Positions 1 through 16,497 of a stretch of DNA of 41,662 bases are shown here, in pieces. The notes under the pieces are model-generated. The model had not been told where the DNA came from, ran no database searches, and saw only the letters and a program-made list of their open reading frames with translations. This DNA is from Azovibrio restrictus. Its GTDB lineage: Bacteria > Bacteroidota > Bacteroidia > Chitinophagales > Chitinophagaceae. How positions within the stretch are numbered: the first letter of the stretch is position 1; each line of letters opens with the position of its first letter. The stretch is taken from NCBI GenBank assembly GCA_029255605.1, contig JANLJF010000073.1, positions 1-41,662 on the forward strand, read 5' to 3'. A program made the position numbers and the translations under genes.

Positions 1-171
1 ATGTTTTATAACCAGCGTTTGTATGGCGGGTGTGAAGCAATGCTGTTCCAGGTAATCGATTAAGTAGTGCAGAAAAGGCTTGCCGTTTACGGGGGCCATG
101 CATTTGGGATGTTCTCCTATTACACTTTGCTACCTTGTGCCCAGCCCGCCGGCCAATATGATGCATTCCAT
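1..171 (-). pseudogene. Sugar-1-phosphate nucleotidyltransferase, N-terminal part, interrupted by an in-frame TAG
   Basis: The minus-strand reading frame starting with ATG at 171-169 encodes MECIILAGGLGTR, the nucleotide-binding loop of NTP-transferase-fold sugar nucleotidyltransferases. Codon 14 (132-130) is TAG. The frame then stays open to the window edge and continues with family-like sequence, including the expected Pro-Lys and the stretch MAPVNGKPFLHYLIDYLEQ. A Leu normally follows GTR, so one base change (TTG to TAG) would explain the stop. The ATG overlaps the stop of the upstream sugar kinase (TAATG) with GGAG just before it, so translational coupling was evidently intended. The family makes NDP-sugars; next to a heptose-kinase-like gene, a GDP-heptose-type (HddC-like) role is an inference. 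A downstream Met restart would lose the GTR loop. A sequencing error remains possible. Only 57 codons are visible. Confidence 0.75.
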
Positions 172-1193
172 TATACACTCCAGGTTGATAGCCCGTGCTC
201 CACGAACTGGTAATTACGAAATGCGCCGCCAAATTTTTCCAGTGCGGCCATTACATTATAACGTGTAGTGCCGGGACAGTAAAACATCATAAAACCACCA
301 CCGCCTGCACCGCTCACTTTTCCGCCGGTGGCGCCCGCTGCCAATGCAGTTTCATATATGGTATCCATGGCTGTGTTAGATATACCCTGCGCCGTCTGCT
401 TTTTAAAACGGAAGCCATAGTCCAGTATCTTGCCTATATCATCTACTGCACCTTTCAGCAAGGCCTCTTTCATCATATTGGCTTGCTGTTTCAGTTGGTG
501 CATCGCATCTATCGATTTCTCGTTCTTTTCCGTCACGTTCTTACTTTGCGCTTCAATGATGGTAGAAGACAGGCGGCTGGTAGAAGTAAAGTATAACAGC
601 AGGTTATTTTCCAGCTCGAAAAGGAATTTCTGTTTGATGCGCAGAGGGTTTACAATAACACGGTTATTCTCATAAAATTCCATAAAGTTCACGCCGCCGA
701 ATGTAGCAGCATACTGGTCTTGCTTGCCACCTGCCATAGCCAGCTCCACGCGTTCTATATGATAAGACATGTGTGCAATGTCATATTCCCCTAAGGGTAG
801 TCGCAGCCATTCTGCAAAGGCACCGATGATGGTCACCATCAGGGTAGAAGAGCTGCCCAACCCCGAACCGGCAGGCGCATCCACAAATGTTGTCAGCTTG
901 AAACCACTGTTAACAGGCCCGTATTTAGCTACTATATGGTTATACACACCTTTGGCAAGGTCCAGCGTACCATCTATCGGCAGTTTGTCTGCTTTTTCAT
1001 AACACACACTTTCCCTCCTGTCTGTGGCTTCAATAATGATCTCGTTGGTAGAAAGCAGTTCTATGCTGGCATACGCATATAATGAAATAGTAGCATTCAG
1101 GATAGCACCCCCGTACATATCGCAATACGGGCTAACATCGGTACCACCACCTGCCAGTCCTATCCTGAGTGGTGCTTTACTACGGTATATCAT
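171..1193 (-). CDS. GHMP-family sugar kinase, D-glycero-D-manno-heptose 7-phosphate kinase-like
   Basis: The 340-residue protein is a full-length GHMP kinase. Residues 1-40 hold the start typical of HddA-type kinases (APLRIGLAGGGTDVSPYC). The ATP-binding motif PAGSGLGSSS lies at about 107-116, and the C-terminal Gly-rich motif (GGKVSGAGGGGF) at about 290-301. The family phosphorylates sugars using ATP; HddA acts on heptose 7-phosphate for GDP-heptose, and related bacterial enzymes act on fucose or other sugars, so the substrate is inferred. Its stop codon overlaps the start of the following nucleotidyltransferase, which fits a kinase plus nucleotidyltransferase module for cell-surface polysaccharide or S-layer precursor synthesis. 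That partner carries a nonsense codon here. A near-match to the -7 box (TCTTTTTG) lies just upstream of the ATG. Confidence 0.85.
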   Translation of the reverse strand: MIYRSKAPLRIGLAGGGTDVSPYCDMYGGAILNATISLYAYASIELLSTNEIIIEATDRRESVCYEKADKLPIDGTLDLAKGVYNHIVAKYGPVNSGFKLTTFVDAPAGSGLGSSSTLMVTIIGAFAEWLRLPLGEYDIAHMSYHIERVELAMAGGKQDQYAATFGGVNFMEFYENNRVIVNPLRIKQKFLFELENNLLLYFTSTSRLSSTIIEAQSKNVTEKNEKSIDAMHQLKQQANMMKEALLKGAVDDIGKILDYGFRFKKQTAQGISNTAMDTIYETALAAGATGGKVSGAGGGGFMMFYCPGTTRYNVMAALEKFGGAFRNYQFVEHGLSTWSV

Positions 1194-2046: not shown

Positions 2047-2275
2047 GTTTCAGATTTTGCGCGTAAAAATAATAGAATTTTACAGAAATATATACCCTTA
2101 AAACCGGCTTACTATAAACATACATTTTAATAATAACATTAAAACGGGATTAAAGACCTATGAAACTCAATAACGACCTTGTAAAATTTTGCTAAAGTTT
2201 ATTAATTTACAATTGCATTTTGTTCTCATTGGGCAAAATGCTTCTTTGTCTTATCATGTAACTTATATAAAATGT

Positions 2276-4888
2276 ATGGAAAGTAAACTTTTACAACCCT
2301 CAAAAATACGACGTTTCTTAAGAAACTTGTCCTTAACGTTGTGTTGCGCATTGATGCTGCCATTTTCTTCCGGCGCGCAATTGCCTACTACGGCAGCAGC
2401 ATATCCGTTCGTTGCGTCTAACAAAACTTTTACGTACCTGCCCAGTGGTACGCCTGTCACTTTTACTAACTGGGATGATGGTTATGTACAAAACATACCA
2501 ATAGGCTTCCCATTTACTTTCTGTGGCGTACCGTATACTACAGTTACCGCGCATACAAACGGGTATATGTGCTTTGGTAATATTACTAATATGTATTTGA
2601 GTGCAAATCAAGCTTACTTGCAGTATATGGCTCCGGCCGTTATTGCACAGTGGCATGATGCTTATGGACAAAATGCCAGTACCACACCGGTTACTTATAC
2701 AACCATAGGTACTGCGCCCAATCGTGTATTTATACTGGAGTTTAAAAACTGGGGCACTTGCTGTTCTCCCAGCTTTTATATAAGCTATCAATACATTCTT
2801 CATGAAGGTGGTGCGGTAGAGATTCTGTACGACCAGGTAGGCAGTGGCAATTTCCCTTCATATGCGGCTGTAGGTATTGCCAGGAATCAAAATGATTTCC
2901 AGATGCTGCCAAACTTAAGCGCATCACCTACCCCCAATACCACAACCTTTGTAACATGTGGTGGTGGCCGTCCCGCTACAGGCCAAAGTTATCTTTGGGG
3001 TTTGATCCCTTGTACAGGTACACCTGAATTTGAGGTTACAGGCCCTACGCAAGTTTGTCCCGGCAAGCCATTCTCTCTTTCAGTAAGCGGTACAGGCATC
3101 ATTTCAGGCCTTACGTTTCAATGGGAATCATCAAATGATGGTACTACATGGAATACAATTATGGGTGCAACGACAAACAGCATATCAGATGTAATCACCA
3201 CACCTATGTGGTACCGTTGCAATATTACATGTACCAACTCAGGCCTGTCGTATACTACACAGCCATGGAAAATAAGCATTGCTGATTTTATGTTCTGCTA
3301 CTGCGATAATGGTGCTGCAACAGCAACAGGTTTGGATATAGGTAATGTAACGCTTATCGAACAATCCATTTACAAACCGAAATCGGATACGATACTGAAT
3401 AATGGTGTGGCCAGCCCGCCATCCGGCAATGCAACCGCCAACAAAACGTACACTACCTTCCAGCATACACTGCCGCCTATAGTAATGTATCGTGATTCTG
3501 TATACAGGATATCCGTATCACGTATCACATCTGCAGCAGCTCCTATTAAAGATGCCAATGTTACTGTGTTTATAGACCTGGATAGGGATGGTGTTTTTGA
3601 CGCTACCGATAAAGTAATGCAAACACAGATAAATAGTTTGTCATTAATAGCAGATACGGAAGTAGATACTTTCCAGATACCAATGTCGGCCGAAATAGGT
3701 TTGACAGGTATGCGTGTGGTGCTGAGGGGTGCACCTAACAATGCCGATTCATGTGGTTTCAGCGGCGAAGGTGAAACAGAAGATTATATAGTGGATATGC
3801 GTTATGAGCCTTGTTCAGGCCCGGTTAACCCCGGTAACGGCCAGGCTACGGATACCAGTATTTGTGCCGGTTACGACTATATCGTACTGGATACAACATA
3901 TGAGAAGAAAAAATCTGAGCTGCAACGTTTCTGGCAGGTATCTGGCGATAATGTTTATTGGTCGAACATAACAGCCAGCACTGATAAAGATACATTGATG
4001 CGTGTTTTTGGCGGCCAGCCTTTATACTATCGTGTACGCATGATATGCCAGGCTACCGATGATACAACCTATTCAGACCCTGTATTGGTAAATGCTAAGG
4101 CAGGTTACAAATGTTATTGTTATAGCCAGTCTATGGGTGGTAAAAATGATAGCAGTGATATTGGCGGTATTAGCGTAGGCCCGTATACGGTATATACAGG
4201 TGGCCCTCACGTACTGAATCCGGATGCCAACCGCAAACGCACCGACCATACTGATGATACTCCTATGATACTGGATGTGGATAGCACTTATAGTCTTGTA
4301 GTATATCACACACAGCGTTCAGTAGAACATGCGGATGCGAAGATTACCATATTTATGGACTTCAACAATAATAAACAGTATGATGTGCCATATGAGCGTG
4401 TGTTCACCGGTTACACCGGCATTGGAAACTTTACCATAGCAGATAATGTAACAATACCATCTACCGTAATTACAGGGTTGGAAACAGGTTTGCGTGTAGT
4501 ATTGAATAACGATTTGGCACCTAACATTCCGTCTGATGAAGCCTGTGGCCCTTATAGCTCAGGAGAAACGGAAGATTACATCGTAAAGTTTGAAAGAAGG
4601 CTGTTCCCTGCAGGTGTTAATGCTGCAAATGCTATTTCTTCATTCGGTATGTACCCCAACCCTACCAAAGGCAAATTTGTATTACAGTTTGCCAGTGCAG
4701 CAGCGTTTGACAATGTAGATGTTACTATCGCAAACATAACCGGTCAACTGGTATATAATAATACTTATAAACACAATGGTGGCCAGTTCAGCCAGGAGAT
4801 CAATTTAACAGAATTACCTCGTGGTGTTTATATGGTGACTTTATCAGCTGCCGGCGAAAAACAAATACAAAAGTTAGTGATAGAGTAG
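2276..4888 (+). CDS. Secreted GEVED-domain protein with T9SS sorting tail (array member 1)
   Basis: The open frame extends up to 2189, but the ATG at 2276 is preferred because it directly begins a signal peptide: a basic n-region (KIRRFLR), a hydrophobic core, and a cut near SGA-Q. This gives 870 residues. The order is: an N-terminal head (about 36-245), an Ig-like segment with paired Cys (about 245-340), GEVED domain 1 (about 343-510, with FIDLDRDGVFD and GETEDYIVD), a linker, GEVED domain 2 (about 613-773, with IFMDFNNNKQYD and GETEDYIV), and a Por-type C-terminal sorting domain (about 790-870, YPNPTKGKF to the end). T9SS tails direct export across the outer membrane and cell-surface attachment. 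The two acidic DxDxDG-like segments suggest calcium binding. The head differs from those of the next two genes; the body is clearly homologous but diverged. A surface adhesin or binding role is inferred. Confidence 0.87.
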   Translation: MESKLLQPSKIRRFLRNLSLTLCCALMLPFSSGAQLPTTAAAYPFVASNKTFTYLPSGTPVTFTNWDDGYVQNIPIGFPFTFCGVPYTTVTAHTNGYMCFGNITNMYLSANQAYLQYMAPAVIAQWHDAYGQNASTTPVTYTTIGTAPNRVFILEFKNWGTCCSPSFYISYQYILHEGGAVEILYDQVGSGNFPSYAAVGIARNQNDFQMLPNLSASPTPNTTTFVTCGGGRPATGQSYLWGLIPCTGTPEFEVTGPTQVCPGKPFSLSVSGTGIISGLTFQWESSNDGTTWNTIMGATTNSISDVITTPMWYRCNITCTNSGLSYTTQPWKISIADFMFCYCDNGAATATGLDIGNVTLIEQSIYKPKSDTILNNGVASPPSGNATANKTYTTFQHTLPPIVMYRDSVYRISVSRITSAAAPIKDANVTVFIDLDRDGVFDATDKVMQTQINSLSLIADTEVDTFQIPMSAEIGLTGMRVVLRGAPNNADSCGFSGEGETEDYIVDMRYEPCSGPVNPGNGQATDTSICAGYDYIVLDTTYEKKKSELQRFWQVSGDNVYWSNITASTDKDTLMRVFGGQPLYYRVRMICQATDDTTYSDPVLVNAKAGYKCYCYSQSMGGKNDSSDIGGISVGPYTVYTGGPHVLNPDANRKRTDHTDDTPMILDVDSTYSLVVYHTQRSVEHADAKITIFMDFNNNKQYDVPYERVFTGYTGIGNFTIADNVTIPSTVITGLETGLRVVLNNDLAPNIPSDEACGPYSSGETEDYIVKFERRLFPAGVNAANAISSFGMYPNPTKGKFVLQFASAAAFDNVDVTIANITGQLVYNNTYKHNGGQFSQEINLTELPRGVYMVTLSAAGEKQIQKLVIE

Positions 4889-4915
4889 TATTATAGAATA
4901 ATCGTTATATAAGAT

Positions 4916-4946
4916 AAAGGAGGCCAAAAGCCTCCTTTATTTTTTA
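4916..4946 (+). terminator. Intrinsic terminator after GEVED gene 1
   Basis: A 9-bp perfect stem (AAAGGAGGC / GCCTCCTTT) with a 5-base loop is followed by ATTTTTT. It lies about 28 bases after the stop codon and separates the first array gene from the second, so the array is probably not one transcript. Confidence 0.85.
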
Positions 4947-5051
4947 AGCAGTTTTTAACACTGGCAAAAAATATAATATACCTGTTTTTCTTTATTTTAA
5001 TTATGCTTTAATATGTTTTAAACTACCTTTTCATGACAAAAACTGATGTAC

Positions 5052-7529
5052 ATGAAAAGAACCTTATTACTCTTTCTGTCATTGTGGCTGTATGTAGGGG
5101 CAGCGTTGGCTCAAATACCTCAATACACCTATACAAACAACGCAACAGGTGGTAATTACATTCCTTTTGGTGTTGGTGCCGGATGGAACAATTACCGGTC
5201 GCAATTTTTGTACTTGCCGGGCGATTTCCCTACTGCGCCTGCGCTTCCCGGTTTTATTACCACTATATATTTCAGGGCATATTATGCCACGTCTTCTTTT
5301 ACGCTGAATGATTTGAATGTTTCTATCGGAAACACCAGCGTCACAAGCCTTACCGGTTATGTTACCGGGCTAACTCCGGCATTTTCTGCCAGTTCATACT
5401 CATGGACCGGGTTGATTGCCGGCCAGTGGTTTGCCATTCCGCTTCCTACACCTGTATATGTAGATTTAACGCAACCTCTTGTTATAGATGTTAGCCAAAC
5501 AGGTGGCTCTGGCGGTATCCCGGTATATGCAGGGGGCACACCGGTTAGTAGCACATATACAGGCAATACACATGCTTATAGTACAACATCCAGTACTTCT
5601 GCCAGCACACGCCGTTATTCTTATCAGTTTGGTTTCGACTTTTTCGTCGGCTACCCCTGTACAGGTACGCCTACTGCAGATGTAGTGGTTCCCACGCCTG
5701 TATGTCCTAACAAAGGATATGTTGTAAAACCCGGTACCTTTTATGCAGATGCTACTTATGATTGGGAGTATTCTGATGACGGTACTACCTGGAACCCTTA
5801 CCTGGGCCCTGTAGGGCAATTGGCCGATTTCCGCGATTCTATTACCGCACCCCGTTGGTACAGGTGTAAGATCACCTGTATTGCAACCGGCTTATCATAC
5901 ATGACCCCTGCGAAGAAAGTAGAGATTGCACCGTTCTATTATTGTTATTGCGATAATGGTGCGGCAATAAGTACCGGCCTTGATGTAGGTAATGTAAAAA
6001 TGATTGCCCAGTCTATTTATAAACCGAAGAGCGATACCCTGCTGGATAATGGTAATGCCTCACCGCCCACCAGTAACGTGCAGGCGAAAAACACTTACAG
6101 TACGTTCCAGTACAGTATCCCCCCGATAAAGATGTACCGTGATTCGGTGTATGCGTTACATGTATCACGCATCACCTCGGCTGCCACCGCCAAAGATGCG
6201 AACGTAAGCATCTTTATAGACCTGGACCGTGATGGTGTTTTTGATGCAAGCGATAAAGTTTTCCAGAAACAGATCAACAGCCTGTCGCTGGTAGCCCATA
6301 CGGAGATCGATACGATCACGATCCCGATGACAGCAGAGATAGGGCTTACAGGCATGCGTGTGATCATGCGGGATGCACCGAACAACCCGGATTCCTGCGG
6401 TTATTTCGGTGAAGGTGAGACGGAAGACTACCTGGTAGATATGCGCTACGAGCCCTGTAAAGGCCCTCAGAACCCCGGTACGGTAGACCCGAGCGATACC
6501 TCGTTGTGCACAGGTTATGATTATGTGGTAGCCGATACGACGTATGAGAAGAAGAAATCAGAGATCACACGCTACTGGCAGGTATCAGGCGATAACATCA
6601 ACTGGAACGGCATCACCGGCAGTACCAATAAAGACATGCTGCCCTTCATTTTCACCGGCCAGCCATTATACTATCGTGTCCGCAATATCTGCGAAGCCAC
6701 AGCCGATACGACCTATACGGACGCCCGCCTGGTAAATGCGAAAGCCGGCTATAAATGTTATTGCTACAGCCAGGCCGAAGGCATCAGCCAGGACAGCAGT
6801 GATATCGGCGGTATCCGCATTGGAGACTATACGTATATGACCGGTGGGCCGCACACCCTGAACCCGGATGCGCGCCGCAAACGCACCGACCATACGGACG
6901 GGCAGGTACCGGTGTTGTACATAGACAGTACCTACAATATGTATGTATACCATACGATGCGCAGCGCAGAGCATGCCGATGCGAAGGTGACGATCTTTAT
7001 GGACTTCAATAACAACAAGCAATACGATTTGCCGTACGAGCGTGTATATACGGGCTATACCGGCATCGGCAACTTTACGGTGGTAGACCCTGTAACGATA
7101 CCGAAGAATGTGATCACGAACCTACCAACGGGTTTAAGAGTGATCCTGAACAACGACCTGGCCCCGAACGTACCATCAGATGAAGCGTGCGGTGCCTATA
7201 CATCGGGCGAAACGGAAGACTTCATCGTAGAGTTCCGCAGGAACTTCCCTGCGGGTGTGAACGGTCTGGAAAATGAAGTGGGCTTCAACATGTTCCCGAA
7301 CCCTACGACAGGTAAGTTTGTATTGCAGTACAGCAGCAATAAGGAAGTGAAGGATGTTACGGTTACGGTAACAAGCATCACGGGGCAGAAGGTATTTGAG
7401 AAAGCCTATCAGAAGACCGAGCGTGAGTTCAGCCAGGAGATAGACCTGAACGAGATGCCACGTGGCGTGTACTATGTAGAGTTGAATGCCGGAGGTGAGA
7501 AGATGATGCAGAAACTCACAGTGAAATAG
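5052..7529 (+). CDS. Secreted GEVED-domain protein with T9SS sorting tail (array member 2)
   Basis: The start at 5052 (MKRTLLLF) is preferred over the ATG six bases upstream because the paralogue at 7706 begins MKRILLF. The protein has 825 residues: signal peptide to about 21 (ALA-Q), a variable head (about 22-200), an Ig-like segment with paired Cys (about 205-295), GEVED 1 (from C300 to about 465), a linker, GEVED 2 (about 570-730) and a T9SS tail (about 745-825, ending KLTVK). From residue M284 to the end it is identical to array member 3 in protein and in DNA. The head is only distantly similar to member 3 and different from member 1. The body uses many ATC, CCG and ACG codons, unlike member 1. 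A surface binding or adhesion role is inferred; no enzymatic motif is seen. Confidence 0.88.
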   Translation: MKRTLLLFLSLWLYVGAALAQIPQYTYTNNATGGNYIPFGVGAGWNNYRSQFLYLPGDFPTAPALPGFITTIYFRAYYATSSFTLNDLNVSIGNTSVTSLTGYVTGLTPAFSASSYSWTGLIAGQWFAIPLPTPVYVDLTQPLVIDVSQTGGSGGIPVYAGGTPVSSTYTGNTHAYSTTSSTSASTRRYSYQFGFDFFVGYPCTGTPTADVVVPTPVCPNKGYVVKPGTFYADATYDWEYSDDGTTWNPYLGPVGQLADFRDSITAPRWYRCKITCIATGLSYMTPAKKVEIAPFYYCYCDNGAAISTGLDVGNVKMIAQSIYKPKSDTLLDNGNASPPTSNVQAKNTYSTFQYSIPPIKMYRDSVYALHVSRITSAATAKDANVSIFIDLDRDGVFDASDKVFQKQINSLSLVAHTEIDTITIPMTAEIGLTGMRVIMRDAPNNPDSCGYFGEGETEDYLVDMRYEPCKGPQNPGTVDPSDTSLCTGYDYVVADTTYEKKKSEITRYWQVSGDNINWNGITGSTNKDMLPFIFTGQPLYYRVRNICEATADTTYTDARLVNAKAGYKCYCYSQAEGISQDSSDIGGIRIGDYTYMTGGPHTLNPDARRKRTDHTDGQVPVLYIDSTYNMYVYHTMRSAEHADAKVTIFMDFNNNKQYDLPYERVYTGYTGIGNFTVVDPVTIPKNVITNLPTGLRVILNNDLAPNVPSDEACGAYTSGETEDFIVEFRRNFPAGVNGLENEVGFNMFPNPTTGKFVLQYSSNKEVKDVTVTVTSITGQKVFEKAYQKTEREFSQEIDLNEMPRGVYYVELNAGGEKMMQKLTVK
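5901..7528 (+). repeat. 1,628-bp perfect direct repeat, copy A
   Basis: Compared line by line with 8576-10203 (constant offset 2,675), I find no mismatch. The repeat starts at the codon for M284 and ends at the second base of the stop codon (TAG here, TAA in copy B). The preceding 165 bases (5736-5900) align without gaps but carry about 20 differences, so identity begins abruptly. Confidence 0.95.
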
Positions 7530-7552
7530 AAGAAGTAGATCTTCAATATATA

Positions 7553-7581
7553 CTAAGCCCCGCTGTTTTAGCGGGGCTTAG
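7553..7581 (+). terminator. GC-rich hairpin after GEVED gene 2
   Basis: A 12-bp perfect stem (CTAAGCCCCGCT / AGCGGGGCTTAG) with loop GTTTT lies about 24 bases after the stop. No T-run follows (GTGCATT), so termination may be partial. The core matches the terminator after GEVED gene 3. Confidence 0.7.
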
Positions 7582-7705
7582 TGCATTAGATAAACTAAAT
7601 GAAAGACTTTTTAACCGACTATTAGTATAAATATTTTAATTTGAAATCAAGTATTTTTTCTATACCTTAACCGCACATATGTACCGATAAATACACCTTT
7701 TTGAT

Positions 7706-10204
7706 ATGAAAAGAATTTTATTGTTTGCTGCATTGCTCCTTTCAATGCTGACTAATAAATCCTTCGCGCAAACGCCACAGTATAGCTACACAATAGCTTC
7801 GCCCTGTGCCGACCTTGTGCCTTTCGGAGTTACCCCATGGGGATTCAGTAACTATAAGATCCAGATATTATATTTTCCTGATGACTTCACAGGGTTGCCT
7901 GCGCAACCGGGTTTTATTACGGGTATTTATTTCCGTACGCATCCATCCTATGCCATCAGCAATGGTACCTGGAACAACCTGACAGTATCGATAGGGAATA
8001 CGGCCCTTACAACGCTGAATACTACTTTCCAAACCGGTTTGACACCCGCCTTCGGGCCTACAACTTTTACAGTTGCTTCGGCTCCCGGCGGCACTTGGTT
8101 CCAGATACCATTTCCTACACCGGTTTATATAGATGCGTCACAGCCCTTTATAGTAGAAGTGAGCCAGACCGGCGGCTCTAATGGCCAGCCTGTGGCATCA
8201 TGCGGCGCACCTAAAAATCCCGCAAATAATGGTAAGAATACACGCCTTTATGCAACAACGGGTAGTACTACAGGTTTCACGGGTTCTAATTATACGTACG
8301 CCTTTGGTTTCGACTTTTTTGCAGGTTACCCTTGTACAGGTACGCCAACATCTAATGTTGATGCACCGGACATCGTATGCCCTAATAAGGGATATAGGGT
8401 GATGCCTGCTACCTTTTATGCAGATGCTACTTATAATTGGGAGTATTCTGATGACGGCACTACCTGGAACCCTTACCTGGGCCCTGTGGGTCTGATGGCA
8501 GATTTCCGTGATTCTATTACAGCACCCCGTTGGTACAGGTGCAAGATCACCTGTATCAATACCGGTGAGTCATATATGACCCCTGCGAAGAAAGTAGAGA
8601 TTGCACCGTTCTATTATTGTTATTGCGATAATGGTGCGGCAATAAGTACCGGCCTTGATGTAGGTAATGTAAAAATGATTGCCCAGTCTATTTATAAACC
8701 GAAGAGCGATACCCTGCTGGATAATGGTAATGCCTCACCGCCCACCAGTAACGTGCAGGCGAAAAACACTTACAGTACGTTCCAGTACAGTATCCCCCCG
8801 ATAAAGATGTACCGTGATTCGGTGTATGCGTTACATGTATCACGCATCACCTCGGCTGCCACCGCCAAAGATGCGAACGTAAGCATCTTTATAGACCTGG
8901 ACCGTGATGGTGTTTTTGATGCAAGCGATAAAGTTTTCCAGAAACAGATCAACAGCCTGTCGCTGGTAGCCCATACGGAGATCGATACGATCACGATCCC
9001 GATGACAGCAGAGATAGGGCTTACAGGCATGCGTGTGATCATGCGGGATGCACCGAACAACCCGGATTCCTGCGGTTATTTCGGTGAAGGTGAGACGGAA
9101 GACTACCTGGTAGATATGCGCTACGAGCCCTGTAAAGGCCCTCAGAACCCCGGTACGGTAGACCCGAGCGATACCTCGTTGTGCACAGGTTATGATTATG
9201 TGGTAGCCGATACGACGTATGAGAAGAAGAAATCAGAGATCACACGCTACTGGCAGGTATCAGGCGATAACATCAACTGGAACGGCATCACCGGCAGTAC
9301 CAATAAAGACATGCTGCCCTTCATTTTCACCGGCCAGCCATTATACTATCGTGTCCGCAATATCTGCGAAGCCACAGCCGATACGACCTATACGGACGCC
9401 CGCCTGGTAAATGCGAAAGCCGGCTATAAATGTTATTGCTACAGCCAGGCCGAAGGCATCAGCCAGGACAGCAGTGATATCGGCGGTATCCGCATTGGAG
9501 ACTATACGTATATGACCGGTGGGCCGCACACCCTGAACCCGGATGCGCGCCGCAAACGCACCGACCATACGGACGGGCAGGTACCGGTGTTGTACATAGA
9601 CAGTACCTACAATATGTATGTATACCATACGATGCGCAGCGCAGAGCATGCCGATGCGAAGGTGACGATCTTTATGGACTTCAATAACAACAAGCAATAC
9701 GATTTGCCGTACGAGCGTGTATATACGGGCTATACCGGCATCGGCAACTTTACGGTGGTAGACCCTGTAACGATACCGAAGAATGTGATCACGAACCTAC
9801 CAACGGGTTTAAGAGTGATCCTGAACAACGACCTGGCCCCGAACGTACCATCAGATGAAGCGTGCGGTGCCTATACATCGGGCGAAACGGAAGACTTCAT
9901 CGTAGAGTTCCGCAGGAACTTCCCTGCGGGTGTGAACGGTCTGGAAAATGAAGTGGGCTTCAACATGTTCCCGAACCCTACGACAGGTAAGTTTGTATTG
10001 CAGTACAGCAGCAATAAGGAAGTGAAGGATGTTACGGTTACGGTAACAAGCATCACGGGGCAGAAGGTATTTGAGAAAGCCTATCAGAAGACCGAGCGTG
10101 AGTTCAGCCAGGAGATAGACCTGAACGAGATGCCACGTGGCGTGTACTATGTAGAGTTGAATGCCGGAGGTGAGAAGATGATGCAGAAACTCACAGTGAA
10201 ATAA
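7706..10204 (+). CDS. Secreted GEVED-domain protein with T9SS sorting tail (array member 3)
   Basis: The protein has 832 residues and the same architecture as its neighbour: signal peptide MKRILLFAALLLSML to about SFA-Q (21/22), a variable head (about 23-205), an Ig-like segment, GEVED 1 (from C307), GEVED 2 and a T9SS tail. From M291 onward it is identical to array member 2. The head shares blocks with member 2 (PGFITGIYFR, SIGNT, SQTGGS, FGFDFFAGYPCTGTPT) but is otherwise strongly diverged and carries different insertions. Constant body with changed head is the pattern expected when ligand-facing domains diversify while the export and anchoring part is homogenised by gene conversion. Function is not established; cell-surface location follows from the T9SS tail. 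Confidence 0.88.
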   Translation: MKRILLFAALLLSMLTNKSFAQTPQYSYTIASPCADLVPFGVTPWGFSNYKIQILYFPDDFTGLPAQPGFITGIYFRTHPSYAISNGTWNNLTVSIGNTALTTLNTTFQTGLTPAFGPTTFTVASAPGGTWFQIPFPTPVYIDASQPFIVEVSQTGGSNGQPVASCGAPKNPANNGKNTRLYATTGSTTGFTGSNYTYAFGFDFFAGYPCTGTPTSNVDAPDIVCPNKGYRVMPATFYADATYNWEYSDDGTTWNPYLGPVGLMADFRDSITAPRWYRCKITCINTGESYMTPAKKVEIAPFYYCYCDNGAAISTGLDVGNVKMIAQSIYKPKSDTLLDNGNASPPTSNVQAKNTYSTFQYSIPPIKMYRDSVYALHVSRITSAATAKDANVSIFIDLDRDGVFDASDKVFQKQINSLSLVAHTEIDTITIPMTAEIGLTGMRVIMRDAPNNPDSCGYFGEGETEDYLVDMRYEPCKGPQNPGTVDPSDTSLCTGYDYVVADTTYEKKKSEITRYWQVSGDNINWNGITGSTNKDMLPFIFTGQPLYYRVRNICEATADTTYTDARLVNAKAGYKCYCYSQAEGISQDSSDIGGIRIGDYTYMTGGPHTLNPDARRKRTDHTDGQVPVLYIDSTYNMYVYHTMRSAEHADAKVTIFMDFNNNKQYDLPYERVYTGYTGIGNFTVVDPVTIPKNVITNLPTGLRVILNNDLAPNVPSDEACGAYTSGETEDFIVEFRRNFPAGVNGLENEVGFNMFPNPTTGKFVLQYSSNKEVKDVTVTVTSITGQKVFEKAYQKTEREFSQEIDLNEMPRGVYYVELNAGGEKMMQKLTVK
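8576..10203 (+). repeat. 1,628-bp perfect direct repeat, copy B
   Basis: This is the second copy of the repeat at 5901-7528, in the same orientation and with no mismatch found by eye. Intergenic DNA beyond the stop codons is unrelated except for the terminator core GCCCCGCTGTTT.AGCGGGGC. Confidence 0.95.
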
Positions 10205-10227
10205 GTATATACTTTGTAAAAATATAA

Positions 10228-10260
10228 TTAGCCCCGCTGTTTCAGCGGGGCTAATTTTTT
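10228..10260 (+). terminator. Intrinsic terminator after GEVED gene 3
   Basis: A 12-bp perfect stem (TTAGCCCCGCTG / CAGCGGGGCTAA) with a TTT loop is followed by six T. The inner stem is the same as in the hairpin at 7553-7581, so the two genes share a duplicated terminator core. Confidence 0.9.
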
Positions 10261-10504
10261 GCCCTTTTGCGCGTATTACTTTAATATAAAATAATCTTTA
10301 AAATAACAAAATATCTTTCCACGGCTGAAATGTGCATAAATATAGCTAAATGCTTTACAGGCAAGGCTTTAACCCGCATTGAATAATACTTCGTAACTTT
10401 ATCCACAGCAGGTTGATTACTAATTTCCTCCCCCATAATTGTTTTAAATATTTTCGCTATTCATCAGAGGAAAATCAACTTATCTCAACAAATATTTTTT
10501 ACCC
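10261..10504. other. AT-rich intergenic region before nrdJ
   Basis: No gene is visible in this 244-base gap. It should carry the nrdJ promoter; the best -7-like element is TAACTTTA at 10394-10401, one base off the TAnnTTTG consensus. I looked for a cobalamin riboswitch B12-box and for NrdR-type palindromes and could not recognise either. Confidence 0.6.
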
Positions 10505-13500
10505 ATGGCTGCAGCAAAAACTTCAAATAAAACAGCGGGGCTGGTTTTTGACCGCCAATACACAAAAGATGGTGTGAATGTTTTCGACCTGTTCGAGTAT
10601 GATTACCGTACATCGGTAATACGTAACCCGAATGGTGAAAAAGTATTCGAAATGACCGATGTGGAAGTTCCGAAACATTGGTCTCAGATAGCTACAGATA
10701 TCTTAGCTCAAAAATATTTTCGTAAAGCAGGTGTTCCGCAAGCCGATGGCAGCCTTGGCCGCGAAACATCTATCAAACAGGTAGCGCACCGCCTGGCCGA
10801 TTGCTGGCGCACATGGGGTAGCAAATACGGTTACTTCGCATCCGATAAAGATGCACAGGTATTTTACGATGAACTGGTATATAGCATCATGCAGCAAAGC
10901 TGTGCGCCCAATTCACCACAATGGTTCAATACCGGCCTTTACAATAGCTATGGTATAGATGGCAAAGCTCAAGGCCACTATTTCGTAAATCCGGAAACAG
11001 GTGAACTGGAGCGTTCTAAAAATGCATACGAGCGCCCGCAGCCACACGCCTGCTTTATACTAAGTGTCGATGACGACCTGGTAAATGAAGGTGGCATCAT
11101 GGACTTGTGGGTACGCGAGGCACGTATCTTCAAATACGGTTCGGGCGTGGGTACCAACTATTCCAACATCCGCGCAGAAGGTGAAAAACTGAGCGGTGGT
11201 GGTACATCCAGCGGCCTGATGAGCTTTCTGAAAATAGGTGACCGCGCTGCAGGTGCTATCAAAAGCGGTGGTACTACACGTCGAGCTGCTAAAATGGTTT
11301 GCCTTGACCTGGACCACCCTGAAGTAGTAGACTTTATAGACTGGAAAGTAGAAGAAGAAAAGAAAGTGGCCGCACTGATAGCTGCTGGCTACGCTTCTGA
11401 TTATGAAGGCGAGGCTTACAAAACAGTATCTGGCCAGAACTCAAACAACTCGGTACGTATACCTAACGAATTCTTCCGCCGCCTGGCCAATAACGAAGAT
11501 TGGGAAATGACCGCGCGCAGCAATGGCAAGGTGATGAAAAAAATGCCTGCTGCACAGTTGTTCGATAAAATATCGTACGCTGCATGGCGCTGTGCCGACC
11601 CGGGTACACAATATGATACTACCATCAATGAATGGCACACATGCCCTGAAGGTGGCCCTATCCGTGCGTCTAACCCATGCTCGGAGTATATGTTCCTGGA
11701 TAATACAGCATGTAACCTGGCATCGCTCAACCTGCGCCGCTTCTTCAATGAAGAAACCGGCATATTTGATGTGCAAGGCTTTGAATATATGACTCGCCTG
11801 TGGACTGTTGTGTTGGAAATATCCGTACTGATGGCGCAGTTTCCTTCTCCTGAAGTAGCGCAGCTGAGCTACGACTATCGCACGCTGGGCCTGGGCTATG
11901 CCAACCTTGGCTCTATGCTGATGGTAAGCGGTATAGCTTATGATAGTGAGGAAGCCCGTGCTATTGCAGGTGCTATCACTGCCATCATGAACGGTATAGC
12001 CTATAAAACATCTGCAGAGATGGCGGCTGCATTGGGTGCTTTCCCTCGTTACGAAGAGAATAAAAAGCACATGATGCGTGTTATGCGCAATCACCGCGCC
12101 GCTGCTTACGATGCTGCTGATGCGTACGAAGGCCTGGAAACAAAACCAATGGGCATCAATGCTAAATACTGTCCTGATTACCTGCTGACTGCCGCTACCA
12201 AAGCATGGGATGATGCCGTGCAAATGGGCGAACAACATGGCTACCGCAATGCGCAGGCTACTGTTATTGCTCCTACGGGTACCATAGGCCTGGTAATGGA
12301 TTGCGATACTACCGGTATCGAGCCCGACTTTGCACTGGTTAAATTCAAAAAACTTTCCGGTGGTGGTTATTTCAAGATCATCAACCAGTCTATACCTACA
12401 GCACTGAAAAAACTGGGCTACAAACCTGATGAAGCAGATGCTATCGTTAAGTATGCAAAAGGCCACGCTACGTTCGCAGGTGCTCCATATATCAATCACC
12501 AGTCATTGAGCGAAAAAGGCTTCATAGCCGACGAGCTGAAAAAACTGGATACTGCAGTAGAAAGCGCTTTTGAAATAGGTTTCGTATTCAACGTTTACAC
12601 ACTGGGCGAAGAATGCCTGCAACGCCTGGGCTTCACTGCCGAGCAATATTATGCACCGGACTTCAACCTGCTGGAATCCCTGGGCTTCAGCGATGAAGAG
12701 ATAGATGCAGCTAACGATTACGTATGCGGTACCATGATGATAGAAGGTGCCCCTTACCTGAAAGAAGAGCACCTGCCGGTGTTCGACTGCGCTAACAAAT
12801 GCGGTAAAAAAGGTGAGCGCTACATCCATGCGCATGGCCACATCCGTATGATGGGTGCTACACAGCCTTTCATCAGCGGTGCCATCTCTAAAACCATCAA
12901 TCTGCCAAATGAGGCTACGGTAGAAGAAATAAAAGACTGCTACACACTTAGCTGGCAGTTGGGTATCAAGGCTTGTGCCCTGTACCGCGACGGTTCTAAA
13001 CTGAGCCAGCCACTGAGCAACAAAAGCGATAAAAAGAAAAAAGAAGATACAAAAGAAACAGCCGCCGCTGAAGCTGCTACTGCTGAAAGCGCAATAGTAG
13101 ACATGGGCAAGCTGACCATAGATGAACTGCTGGAAGAAGTGAACAAGCGTGTACAGGCCAGCCCCGATACACAGCTGAAACGCGAACTGAGCCGCATCGT
13201 AGAGCGCAAGCAATTACCTGCCAAGCGCCGTGGTTATACCATCAAAGCTAAAGTAGGTGGCCAGCCATTGTTCGTTCGTACCGGTGAATATGGTGATGGC
13301 ACGCTGGGTGAAATATTCCTGGATATGGCCAAAGAAGGTGCTACCATGCGCAGCCTGATGAACAGCTTTGCAATAGCGGTATCTATAGGCCTGCAATACG
13401 GTGTGCCGCTGGATGAATTCGTTGATAAATTCACATTCACCCGCTTTGAACCGGCAGGTATCGTAGAGCACCCGAACATCAAATCGGCTACCTCTGTGCT

Positions 13501-13888: not shown

Positions 13889-13924
13889 AATGGCATATAT
13901 TTTGCTCATCATAGCAAAACCACT

Positions 13925-14820: not shown

Positions 14821-16497
14821 CTATTGCTTTACAAACTTTATAACCTCGCTATGAGCGCCATTTTCCAATCTTATAAAATAAACCCCGTTGCCTATGTTAC
14901 TAATATTTATGTCGCTGTTGTTGCTGTTAGTTCCAGCGCTTATCATTTTGCCCGTCACATCATATATCGTTGCGTTGTAGTTGCCTTTCCACCCGCTGAT
15001 GCGTAGCACATTAGTAGCGGGATTAGGCCATACGGATAATGTGCTGCCGCCATCTATGTTTGCTACACTACTGGTTACCGCCGGCAATGGTACCAGCGCA
15101 CCACCTGTAGCCAGCGCTGCATATAGGCCGAATGCAGGGCCATTACTGTTATTGGCGGGTGCCAGGAAGCCTGAAGCCAGCACGGTAATAGCTTGTCCCT
15201 GCAGTCCCAGTGTTTGCAGAGGTGCAGAATAAGATTTAACTACAGTACTGCCGCTTGCATTGGTTACATCTATTGTATAGTTGCTGGTGGGCAACGACAA
15301 GTAAGTGCTGTAGTTGCCAAAGCTGATGTCATTTACAAGTGTATTACCGCCCGAGCGCACATCAACAGTAGGCGCATCTGTACTACCATGCATTACCAGC
15401 ACATCTGTATTAGCCGCATTCGTGCCCAGTTCGCGTGCTGGTGCAAATGGGCTTAGCCTGAAGTCGGGGCTAGGGTTATAGCCCGAACCGCTAACGATGC
15501 CATTGGCTACCAGTATATAACGGCCGGCAGAATCCAGTGTTACATTCAGGTTGTAGAGCGTATCAGTTACAGCGGTACTGTTTTTTGGTGCAATGCCTAT
15601 GTTCAATGCTGTTTTAGCCGGTGCATCTATAAACGGCGTAGCCGTGCGGAATGCAAAATTGTCCAGCAGTTTGTCTCCGTTCAGGTATACGTCTACAGAA
15701 TCAGCAACGGCATCGGCACAATTATGTATAGCTTGTACACGCGCCAATGCTTCAGCACTGGTAGTAGGCAATGGTATTAATGTACCACCAGCAGCAGGCG
15801 CTACATACAATCCGAATGCAGGGCCATTACTATTATTCGCCGGTGTCAGGAAACCCGATGCCAATACTACAATTGCTTCACCGTCCAGGTTCAGTGTTTG
15901 CAATGGTGCGCTGTAAGTTTGCACGGTAGTAGCCCCTGTGGTAGTAGTTACGCGTATCTTATAGTCGGCAGTAGGCAGTTCAAGATAACCAGCAAAATTA
16001 CCAAACGCGATGTCGTCAACTAGTGTGTTGATACCACTACGCACATCTACGGTAGGGGCATCGGTGCTGCCATGCACTACCAGCACATCTGTATTGGCAG
16101 CATTCGCGGCTGCCTCCCTGCCCATATTATATACACTTATCCTGAAGGGCACCGCAGGGCTGTAACCGCTGCTGCTTTCAATGCCGTTTGCCACTGCTAT
16201 ATATTTGGCGCCGGCAGTCAATGTGGTGGAAAGGTTATAAAAAGTATCTGCTGCGGCAGTGCTGTTTTGAGGCGCAATACCTACGTTGATAGGTACACCT
16301 GCCGGTATGTCTAAAAAGCCGGTCGCGGTGCGGAAGGGTACATTATCCAATGCTTTGGTGCCATTCAGATAAACGTCAACGCTGGCTGCTGCAGCATCAG
16401 CGCTGTTATGAATGATTTGTACCCGTGCAGTCTGCGCATAGCCAGAAATCATGGCAGCACTTAAAGAAAGCGTAAGTAAAAATTTGTGTTTCATCAT
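14821..16497 (-). CDS. Secreted protein with two DUF4397 repeats and a T9SS sorting tail
   Basis: The 558-residue protein has a signal peptide (cut near GYA-Q, residue 21/22) and two tandem copies of a roughly 220-residue unit, starting ARVQIIHNSADA (about 24-246) and ARVQAIHNCADA (about 252-470). Each unit holds VDVYLNG, NVGIAP or NIGIAP, VLVVHGSTDAPTVDVRSG (VLVMHG in the second) and GPAFGLY, which are DUF4397 features. A Por-type sorting domain (about 480-558, VWPNPATNVLRISGW and NIGNGVYFIRL) follows. DUF4397 domains occur in extracellular bacterial proteins, often predicted to bind other molecules; the ligand is unknown. The two units are clearly an internal duplication but have diverged at many positions. 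Export to the cell surface through T9SS is inferred from the tail. Confidence 0.9.
   Translation of the reverse strand: MMKHKFLLTLSLSAAMISGYAQTARVQIIHNSADAAAASVDVYLNGTKALDNVPFRTATGFLDIPAGVPINVGIAPQNSTAAADTFYNLSTTLTAGAKYIAVANGIESSSGYSPAVPFRISVYNMGREAAANAANTDVLVVHGSTDAPTVDVRSGINTLVDDIAFGNFAGYLELPTADYKIRVTTTTGATTVQTYSAPLQTLNLDGEAIVVLASGFLTPANNSNGPAFGLYVAPAAGGTLIPLPTTSAEALARVQAIHNCADAVADSVDVYLNGDKLLDNFAFRTATPFIDAPAKTALNIGIAPKNSTAVTDTLYNLNVTLDSAGRYILVANGIVSGSGYNPSPDFRLSPFAPARELGTNAANTDVLVMHGSTDAPTVDVRSGGNTLVNDISFGNYSTYLSLPTSNYTIDVTNASGSTVVKSYSAPLQTLGLQGQAITVLASGFLAPANNSNGPAFGLYAALATGGALVPLPAVTSSVANIDGGSTLSVWPNPATNVLRISGWKGNYNATIYDVTGKMISAGTNSNNSDINISNIGNGVYFIRLENGAHSEVIKFVKQ

Follow-up and report, generated by a model that had tools for sequence, protein, structure and literature searches.

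Tandem genes for probable T9SS surface proteins in a Chitinophagaceae genome, with constant C-terminal modules that appear homogenized by gene conversion and N-terminal modules that appear exchanged

The GEVED/T9SS gene array and its identical tract

The window analyzed here is one whole contig (JANLJF010000073.1, 41,662 bp) of a 163-contig, 3.27-Mb genome (G000) that is 99.3% complete, and it carries three tandem paralogues, which we call genes A, B and C (Table 1). The true start of gene A, the more distant paralogue that the original prediction omitted, is probably near 2276. Signal peptides were recognized by eye in all three. Two stretches in each protein match the GEVED domain (PF20009, 90–100 bits, cut-off 24.4), and the C-terminal tail of each is recognized by both PF18962 (54–58 bits, cut-off 27) and TIGR04183 (44–45 bits, cut-off 23). 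We sought two components of the T9SS machinery in the same genome and found both over cut-off (SprA_N, 542 bits; PorV, 215 bits). By these matches A, B and C qualify as predicted T9SS cargo with a type A sorting domain, and the B and C proteins are probably exported and surface-bound, so that the label "surface protein" given to them originally fits their GEVED domains, their sorting tails and the T9SS genes of the genome. Promoter and terminator scans of the window gave counts at the level of shuffled sequence (10 vs 11.1 and 5 vs 5.3, respectively). Elsewhere in the window, a 558-aa protein encoded at 14821–16497 on the reverse strand contains an internal duplication (68–69% over ~340 bp, seen via the comparison with a sister genome described below) and, by eye, a sorting-like C-terminal tail.

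Table 1. Coordinates of the array and its modules within the window
Feature	Position	Strand	Remarks
Gene A, tandem paralogue	2189..4888	+	899 aa from mechanical start; GEVED x2 and T9SS tail
Gene B	5046..7529	+	827 aa; variable N-module and constant C-module behind a signal peptide (by eye)
Gene B, start of shared module outside the last conversion tract	5736..5900	+	20/165 bp differ from 8411–8575
Gene B copy of identical tract	5901..7528	+	0/1,628 differences
Gene B, best GEVED match (PF20009)	6201..6437	+	residues 386–464
Gene B, T9SS C-terminal sorting domain	7290..7523	+	PF18962 and TIGR04183 above cut-off
Gene C upstream region and signal peptide, identical to sister	7607..7772	+	166 bp
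Gene C	7706..10204	+	832 aa; plan as gene B, different N-module
Gene C mature N-module, replaced relative to sister	7773..8430	+	different at about one base in three; saturation at synonymous sites
Gene C copy of identical tract	8576..10203	+	0/1,628 differences
Gene C, best GEVED match (PF20009)	8876..9112	+	residues 391–469
Gene C, T9SS C-terminal sorting domain	9965..10198	+	PF18962 and TIGR04183 above cut-off

The 3' two thirds of the adjacent genes B and C are the same sequence. Direct comparison at an offset of 2,675 bp bore out the predicted 1,628-bp base-perfect repeat, and extending the exact match as far as it goes at this offset gives precisely the tract, for which a chance origin is out of the question at such a length. 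The boundaries had also been described closely: about 20 differences were expected in the preceding 165 bases and 20 were counted (87.9% identity), and the right boundary, placed at the stop codons, is correct to within one base, the last identical base being the second of the codon (TAG for B and TAA for C). Left of 5736, the copies soon no longer align without gaps. Recombination between the copies would delete 2,675 bp, in agreement with the ~2.7 kb calculated earlier for this predicted event; the product would be a B-type gene followed by the 3' flank of C, and since the shared part is identical, just the front module of C would be lost. Gene A shares ~69% nucleotide identity with B and C over ~1.4 kb and is not homogenized with either (C-module 64.6% identical in nucleotides to that of B; longest exact match 21 bp).

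Independent homogenization in a sister genome

The nearest genome among those examined is a metagenome assembly titled "uncultured Bacteroides sp." (G011; locus L033 on contig CABHOP010000030.1), hereafter the sister, which carries the same A-B-C array at ~94% nucleotide identity with the same gene-specific flanks. Upstream of gene C and through its signal peptide, the sister is identical over 166 bp (7607–7772), the 3' flank of the sister's gene C (C') is similar to that of the window's, and the N-module of the sister's gene B (B') is 97% identical in protein to its counterpart. Because the sister has an orthologue of B and one of C, each between its own flanks, the duplication predates the split of the two species.

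We aligned B, C, B' and C' and counted site patterns over 6164–7528. Invariant sites make up 1,309 of the 1,365, and all 56 variable sites separate B and C from B' and C', with none specific to one copy; third codon positions account for 48 of them. B' and C' are mutually identical over 1,389 bp. Had the copies diverged since the split, ~56 differences within a species would be expected (Poisson probability of none, ~5e-25). Over this delimited segment, then, every one of the 56 sites places the paralogues of one genome closer together than the orthologues of the two species. Both genes are old, yet their C-modules are identical within each species, indicating independent recent homogenization in both lineages. 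The original prediction had left the choice between gene conversion and a very recent duplication; the sister, with old genes and young identity in both species, supports gene conversion for the B–C pair and does not support recent duplication. Across the 1,628 bp, 65 positions differ between B and B'. If a clock is assumed and a count of zero is given a 95% upper limit of 3 differences, the last conversion in the window lineage would lie within roughly the final 5% of the period since the split.

The tract ends differ between the species, running from 5901 to 7528 in the window and from 6141 to 7529, in window coordinates, in the sister, where a separate 81-bp run at 5821–5901 is also identical between copies. 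In this short run, C' has the B state at 10 sites at which window C differs, and window B alone differs at 3. Past the stop codon, B' resembles C' in the alignment and not window B, so that conversion seems to have run in both directions. For the window's last conversion, neither direction is clearly favored: 7 sites at 5901–6163 group B, C and B' against C', and 5 group B, C and C' against B'. We infer that the left tract end is set by where B and C stop being alike and not by a special site.

A second homogenized pair lies in Chitinophagaceae bacterium IBVUCB1 (G007, contig NFUW01000001, matched by coordinates), a genome assembled by SPAdes from a lake metagenome with 143x Illumina and 9x PacBio coverage (PMC5604771). 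Its two genes are neighbors at another place in the chromosome and have an exact tract of 1,668 bp in common, which starts near residues 298 and 267 (286 and 291 in the window) and extends 53 bp beyond the stop codons; of their N-modules, BLASTP aligns just the last 42 residues. Exact C-module tracts of at least 1,386 bp occur in 3 of 14 adjacent pairs, among 42 within-genome pairs examined; the other 11 adjacent pairs are not homogenized, including one in G004, the one single-contig chromosome of the set (70%, no tract), and a six-gene array in G013 likewise has no tract. A pair in G008 with its members 28 kb apart is a mosaic (87.6%) with a 233-bp exact stretch, and in the remaining 38 of the 42 pairs the exact match is at most 62 bp. 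Homogenization is thus not universal in GEVED/T9SS gene arrays. These counts and the C-module tree below use 42 of 43 family ORFs (one partial G005 ORF was dropped), and an adjacent partial pair in G005 (82% over 1.1 kb) was left out of the 14.

The array of the window lies between gcvH and nrdJ, and 10 of 22 related loci show both of these flanks; the related loci come from records labeled Chitinophagaceae, Chitinophagales, Flavipsychrobacter, Taibaiella or plain Bacteroidetes/Bacteroidia. With loci assigned to genomes by contig coordinates, this place holds a single gene in eight genomes and three genes in the window, the sister and the more distant locus L049. The single genes have an A-type N-module in G002, G006 and G009, a B-type in G010 and G014, and a third type in G004, G007 and G012. 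A plasmid collection gave no match to the query (near mode), nor did a phage collection searched by tblastn with the C-module. One family gene of G008 has a 44-bp perfect palindrome close to its end (L062:5746–5789), and imperfect palindromes of 40–51 bp occur in L062, L065, L066 and L072; these are perhaps terminators.

Gene conversion has to be weighed against three other accounts of the identity. A very recent tandem duplication, followed by replacement of the front in one copy, would likewise give identical 3' parts with different fronts, and the G007 pair may have arisen in this way. For the window, C is already present in the sister, where its upstream region and signal peptide are the same and its 3' flank is similar, and so is B, with an N-module that is 97% identical; this refutes recent duplication unless the two species had each made the duplication separately between the same flanks, and we regard it as very improbable. 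Least credible of all is that strong selection, with no recombination, holds the C-modules identical down to codon use. The C-module protein is indeed conserved between the species (dN 0.008), but its dS from 5901 on is 0.173 between species (NrdJ 0.176; gene A 0.151) against 0 of 355 synonymous sites differing between B and C, and the fixed changes fall largely at third positions. Selection on silent sites is excluded by these between-species changes.

The identity might instead arise in assembly, if copies that differ, or a single copy, had been rendered as one consensus repeated twice. A 1.6-kb exact repeat is hard to bridge by short reads, and G000 is in 163 contigs; the sister contig has a SPAdes-style name and a coverage of 7.1, and the sister and G007 are both metagenome assemblies. 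A short-read assembler can merge slightly different copies, in which case "base-perfect" could mean "nearly so". Contigs of G005, G010 and G014 (L022, L064, L071 and L074) end inside members of the family, which would fit the presence of near-identical copies left out of the assembly. Against this, both copies have distinct N-modules and flanks with orthologues in two genomes, and the two copies are therefore very probably real. Collapse also requires near-identity beforehand, and copies as far apart as the two species, with a difference about every 25 bp, would be expected to stay separate; in the sister assembly, 12 differences between the copies are preserved at 5901–6163, and G007 had PacBio reads from a 20-kb preparation. 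We consider an artifact unlikely, if somewhat less so than duplication. The true B–C identity could be a little under 100%, but several per cent of difference should not be hidden. Gene conversion between old duplicates remains the reading that we prefer.

Replaced N-terminal modules

The N-modules have a different history from the homogenized C-modules. Between 7773 and ~8430, gene C differs from the sister's C with a dN of 0.24, while both flanks are near 4% different; this looks like the replacement of the N-module of gene C, or of the sister's C, by an imported allele and not like local mutation. A second tip replacement with the same pattern was found in the G010/G014 pair at the gcvH–nrdJ place, and three other orthologous comparisons (two G002/G009, one G014/G010) had no such N-module break. 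Searching 15 genus genomes (the window's own, the sister and 13 others), we found no donor of the gene C N-module, whose nearest relative there is the module of the sister's C (67% in nucleotides, 71–72% in amino acids). Cassette antigenic variation from silent donor copies would call for further copies of the variable module in the same genome. Within its own genome, this module DNA matches only itself and the last 123 bp of that of B (75%), in a 163-contig assembly from which repeated copies could be missing; the corresponding module of the sister matches only itself and weak parts of B' (66–71%) in the sister genome.

We also looked for an invertible switch. Among four inverted pairs of at least 14 bp (10-bp seeds) at 4800–10500, none closely flanks 7773–8430, and one consists of the two terminator-like hairpins that follow B and C, at 7556 and 10221. 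The whole window has no inverted repeat of at least 60 bp. Among inverted repeats of these sizes, the window does not show the arrangement of a shufflon-like switch, with a pair on both sides of the variable segment.

Comparison with the sister brought out several other differences along the window. At 41–540, the 3' part of a GHMP-kinase-like gene (171–1193, reverse strand) is 20–30% different from L033, falling to ~4% beyond ~540, and may be a second replaced segment. Conversely, runs of 216–329 bases within 3107–3435, 1576–2099 and 10363–10842, including runs upstream of A and of nrdJ, are identical to the sister against a background of ~4%, as conserved control regions or recent interspecies exchange would produce. 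Near 13890, ~530 bp that lie between nrdJ and the next gene in the sister are absent from the window.

Phylogenies of the two modules conflict. In the C-module tree, copies group within a genome or species pair for the window and sister, the adjacent pair of G007, G008, G012, G005, the L049 genome and five of the six G013 copies. Those of G002, G006 and G009 group by locus and not by genome, the third copy of G007 groups with those of G004, and the G010 and G014 copies pair with each other. N-modules fall by BLAST into clusters of 26, 14, 1 and 1 members that cut across genomes. AU tests on the C-module tree (41 rows, the long-branch G015 also being dropped) rejected clades of A-type and B-type N-modules (p = 0.00036 and 0.00195); the groups, which comprised 12 of the 14 members of the A-type BLAST cluster and 8 of the 26 of the B-type, were chosen after the C-module tree had been seen. 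On the N-module tree, for which 19 of 42 modules were chosen, a clade of the G007 pair (3.8e-53) and a B plus C clade (8.4e-46) were rejected, and a clade joining the modules of B, C, B' and C' was not (p = 0.32). Fronts that cluster by gene or type, together with backs that cluster by genome, thus characterize the window, the sister and the G007 pair, and not G002, G006 or G009.

No Pfam match was found for the tip in any of the 22 members scanned, and its profile searched against PDB sequences gave nothing convincing (best E 0.75). Modeled alone, the N-module is one predicted beta-sandwich (pLDDT 81.5, pTM 0.77), and the whole C protein is modeled as several beta-sandwich domains in a row (pLDDT 79, pTM 0.47). 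The best structural neighbors of the N-module (Z 8.4–10.4, rmsd 3.3–4.0, 5–12% identity) are phage tail-tip, baseplate and capsid proteins, the lectin-like part of Cwp84, PHR domains, and N-terminal parts of carbohydrate and polyvinyl-alcohol esterases; carbohydrate-binding modules rank lower (Z 5.5–6.6). Foldseek gave one match for the tip at E of at most 0.001 and, for the full-length model, Ig-like or complement-type strings with TM-scores of at most 0.25. Full-length VIA-align matches were mostly multi-domain with large rmsd, and neither these nor the full-length Foldseek matches were used for function; the full-length structure alignment covered 38 of the 43 family members. Given Z values that are modest, a ligand-binding tip is a reasonable inference from these models.

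Proposed mechanism, known parallels and significance

Taken together, the comparisons make it highly probable that B and C are old tandem duplicates whose C-modules have been overwritten by repeated gene conversion and whose tips have been exchanged between lineages. Each gene would encode a T9SS-exported, probably stalk-like protein, with an N-terminal tip module on a constant C-terminal module of GEVED and other beta-sandwich domains that ends in a sorting tail. Homologous recombination between B and C, presumably of the RecA type, would repeatedly overwrite one C-module with the other, the latest event or events in the window lineage having left the 1,628-bp identity. The tract would span most of the similar length, with tips too divergent to pair on its left and homology that ends just past the stop codon on its right. 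The tips would thereby escape homogenization and could be exchanged between lineages via recombination in the conserved parts on either side, as may have happened since the split to the tip of gene C or of the sister's C. The tip may bind a ligand, perhaps a carbohydrate, and selection may keep the tips different.

The closest parallels come from other surface-protein genes, which we compare here on parts of the cited accounts. In the Helicobacter pylori homA/homB pair, the 3' segment clusters by strain, which is ascribed to gene conversion (distance 0.020 within strains vs 0.064 between strains), and the 5' segment by gene, with a polymorphic allelic segment in addition, and babA/babB is cited there as precedent (PMC2795765). 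The back halves of B and C likewise cluster by genome and the fronts by gene, and the contrast is sharper than in the portion of the homA/homB account used here, with no differences in the back part and saturated synonymous sites in the fronts. Unlike homA and homB, which are outer-membrane proteins, B and C are predicted T9SS cargo, their genes are adjacent and their host belongs to the Chitinophagaceae (Chitinophagales). Just GEVED, Por_Secre_tail and DUF3244 matched in Pfam (E 0.001), and homology to the Helicobacter Hop/Bab/Hom family is absent from these matches. By sequence, B and C appear to work like the bab and hom paralogues without belonging to their family.

Gingipains are T9SS cargo. 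Surface proteins of Porphyromonas gingivalis exchange alleles and rearrange domains (PMC5266723); like B and C they belong to the Bacteroidota, and they are built of modular adhesin domains, with recombination reshuffling their alleles. The excerpted account describes that exchange between strains, whereas B and C are tandem paralogues with a homogenized constant half. In CshA-like fibrillar adhesins, a ligand-binding CshA_NR2 domain lies upstream of GEVED, and their diversity is ascribed in the cited part to domain shuffling (PMC10952558). The front modules of B and C also precede GEVED; their tip, which has no Pfam match, is not assigned to NR2, and the proteins have two GEVED stretches and a T9SS tail. 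The rhs genes, too, combine a constant part with an exchangeable end, as far as the cited portion describes them, but vary at the C-terminus, while B and C vary at the N-terminus and keep the C-terminus constant (PMC2935791). A limited search of open-license literature found no report of this conversion pattern in T9SS or GEVED proteins. Within that search, what we describe would be a known kind of gene conversion in another protein family, not yet described for T9SS GEVED proteins.

A further step, in which the homogenized C-module serves as a shared recombination arm for trading tips between loci and lineages behind a conserved signal peptide, is speculative and rather unlikely on present comparisons. 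If true, tip trading would let environmental Bacteroidota diversify their T9SS surface proteins with no need of cassettes, and phages or attachment might be the driving force. As it stands, the array offers a clean natural case of bacterial gene conversion, with two species, one array, all 56 differences common to both copies and distinct, defined ends. Short-read assemblies of GEVED/T9SS gene arrays need checking, and the gcvH–nrdJ place could act as a marker locus at which recombination in the little-studied Chitinophagales is measured from long reads. The constant and variable halves of these T9SS-type proteins can have separate histories, so whole-protein trees and orthologue calls can mislead within the family.
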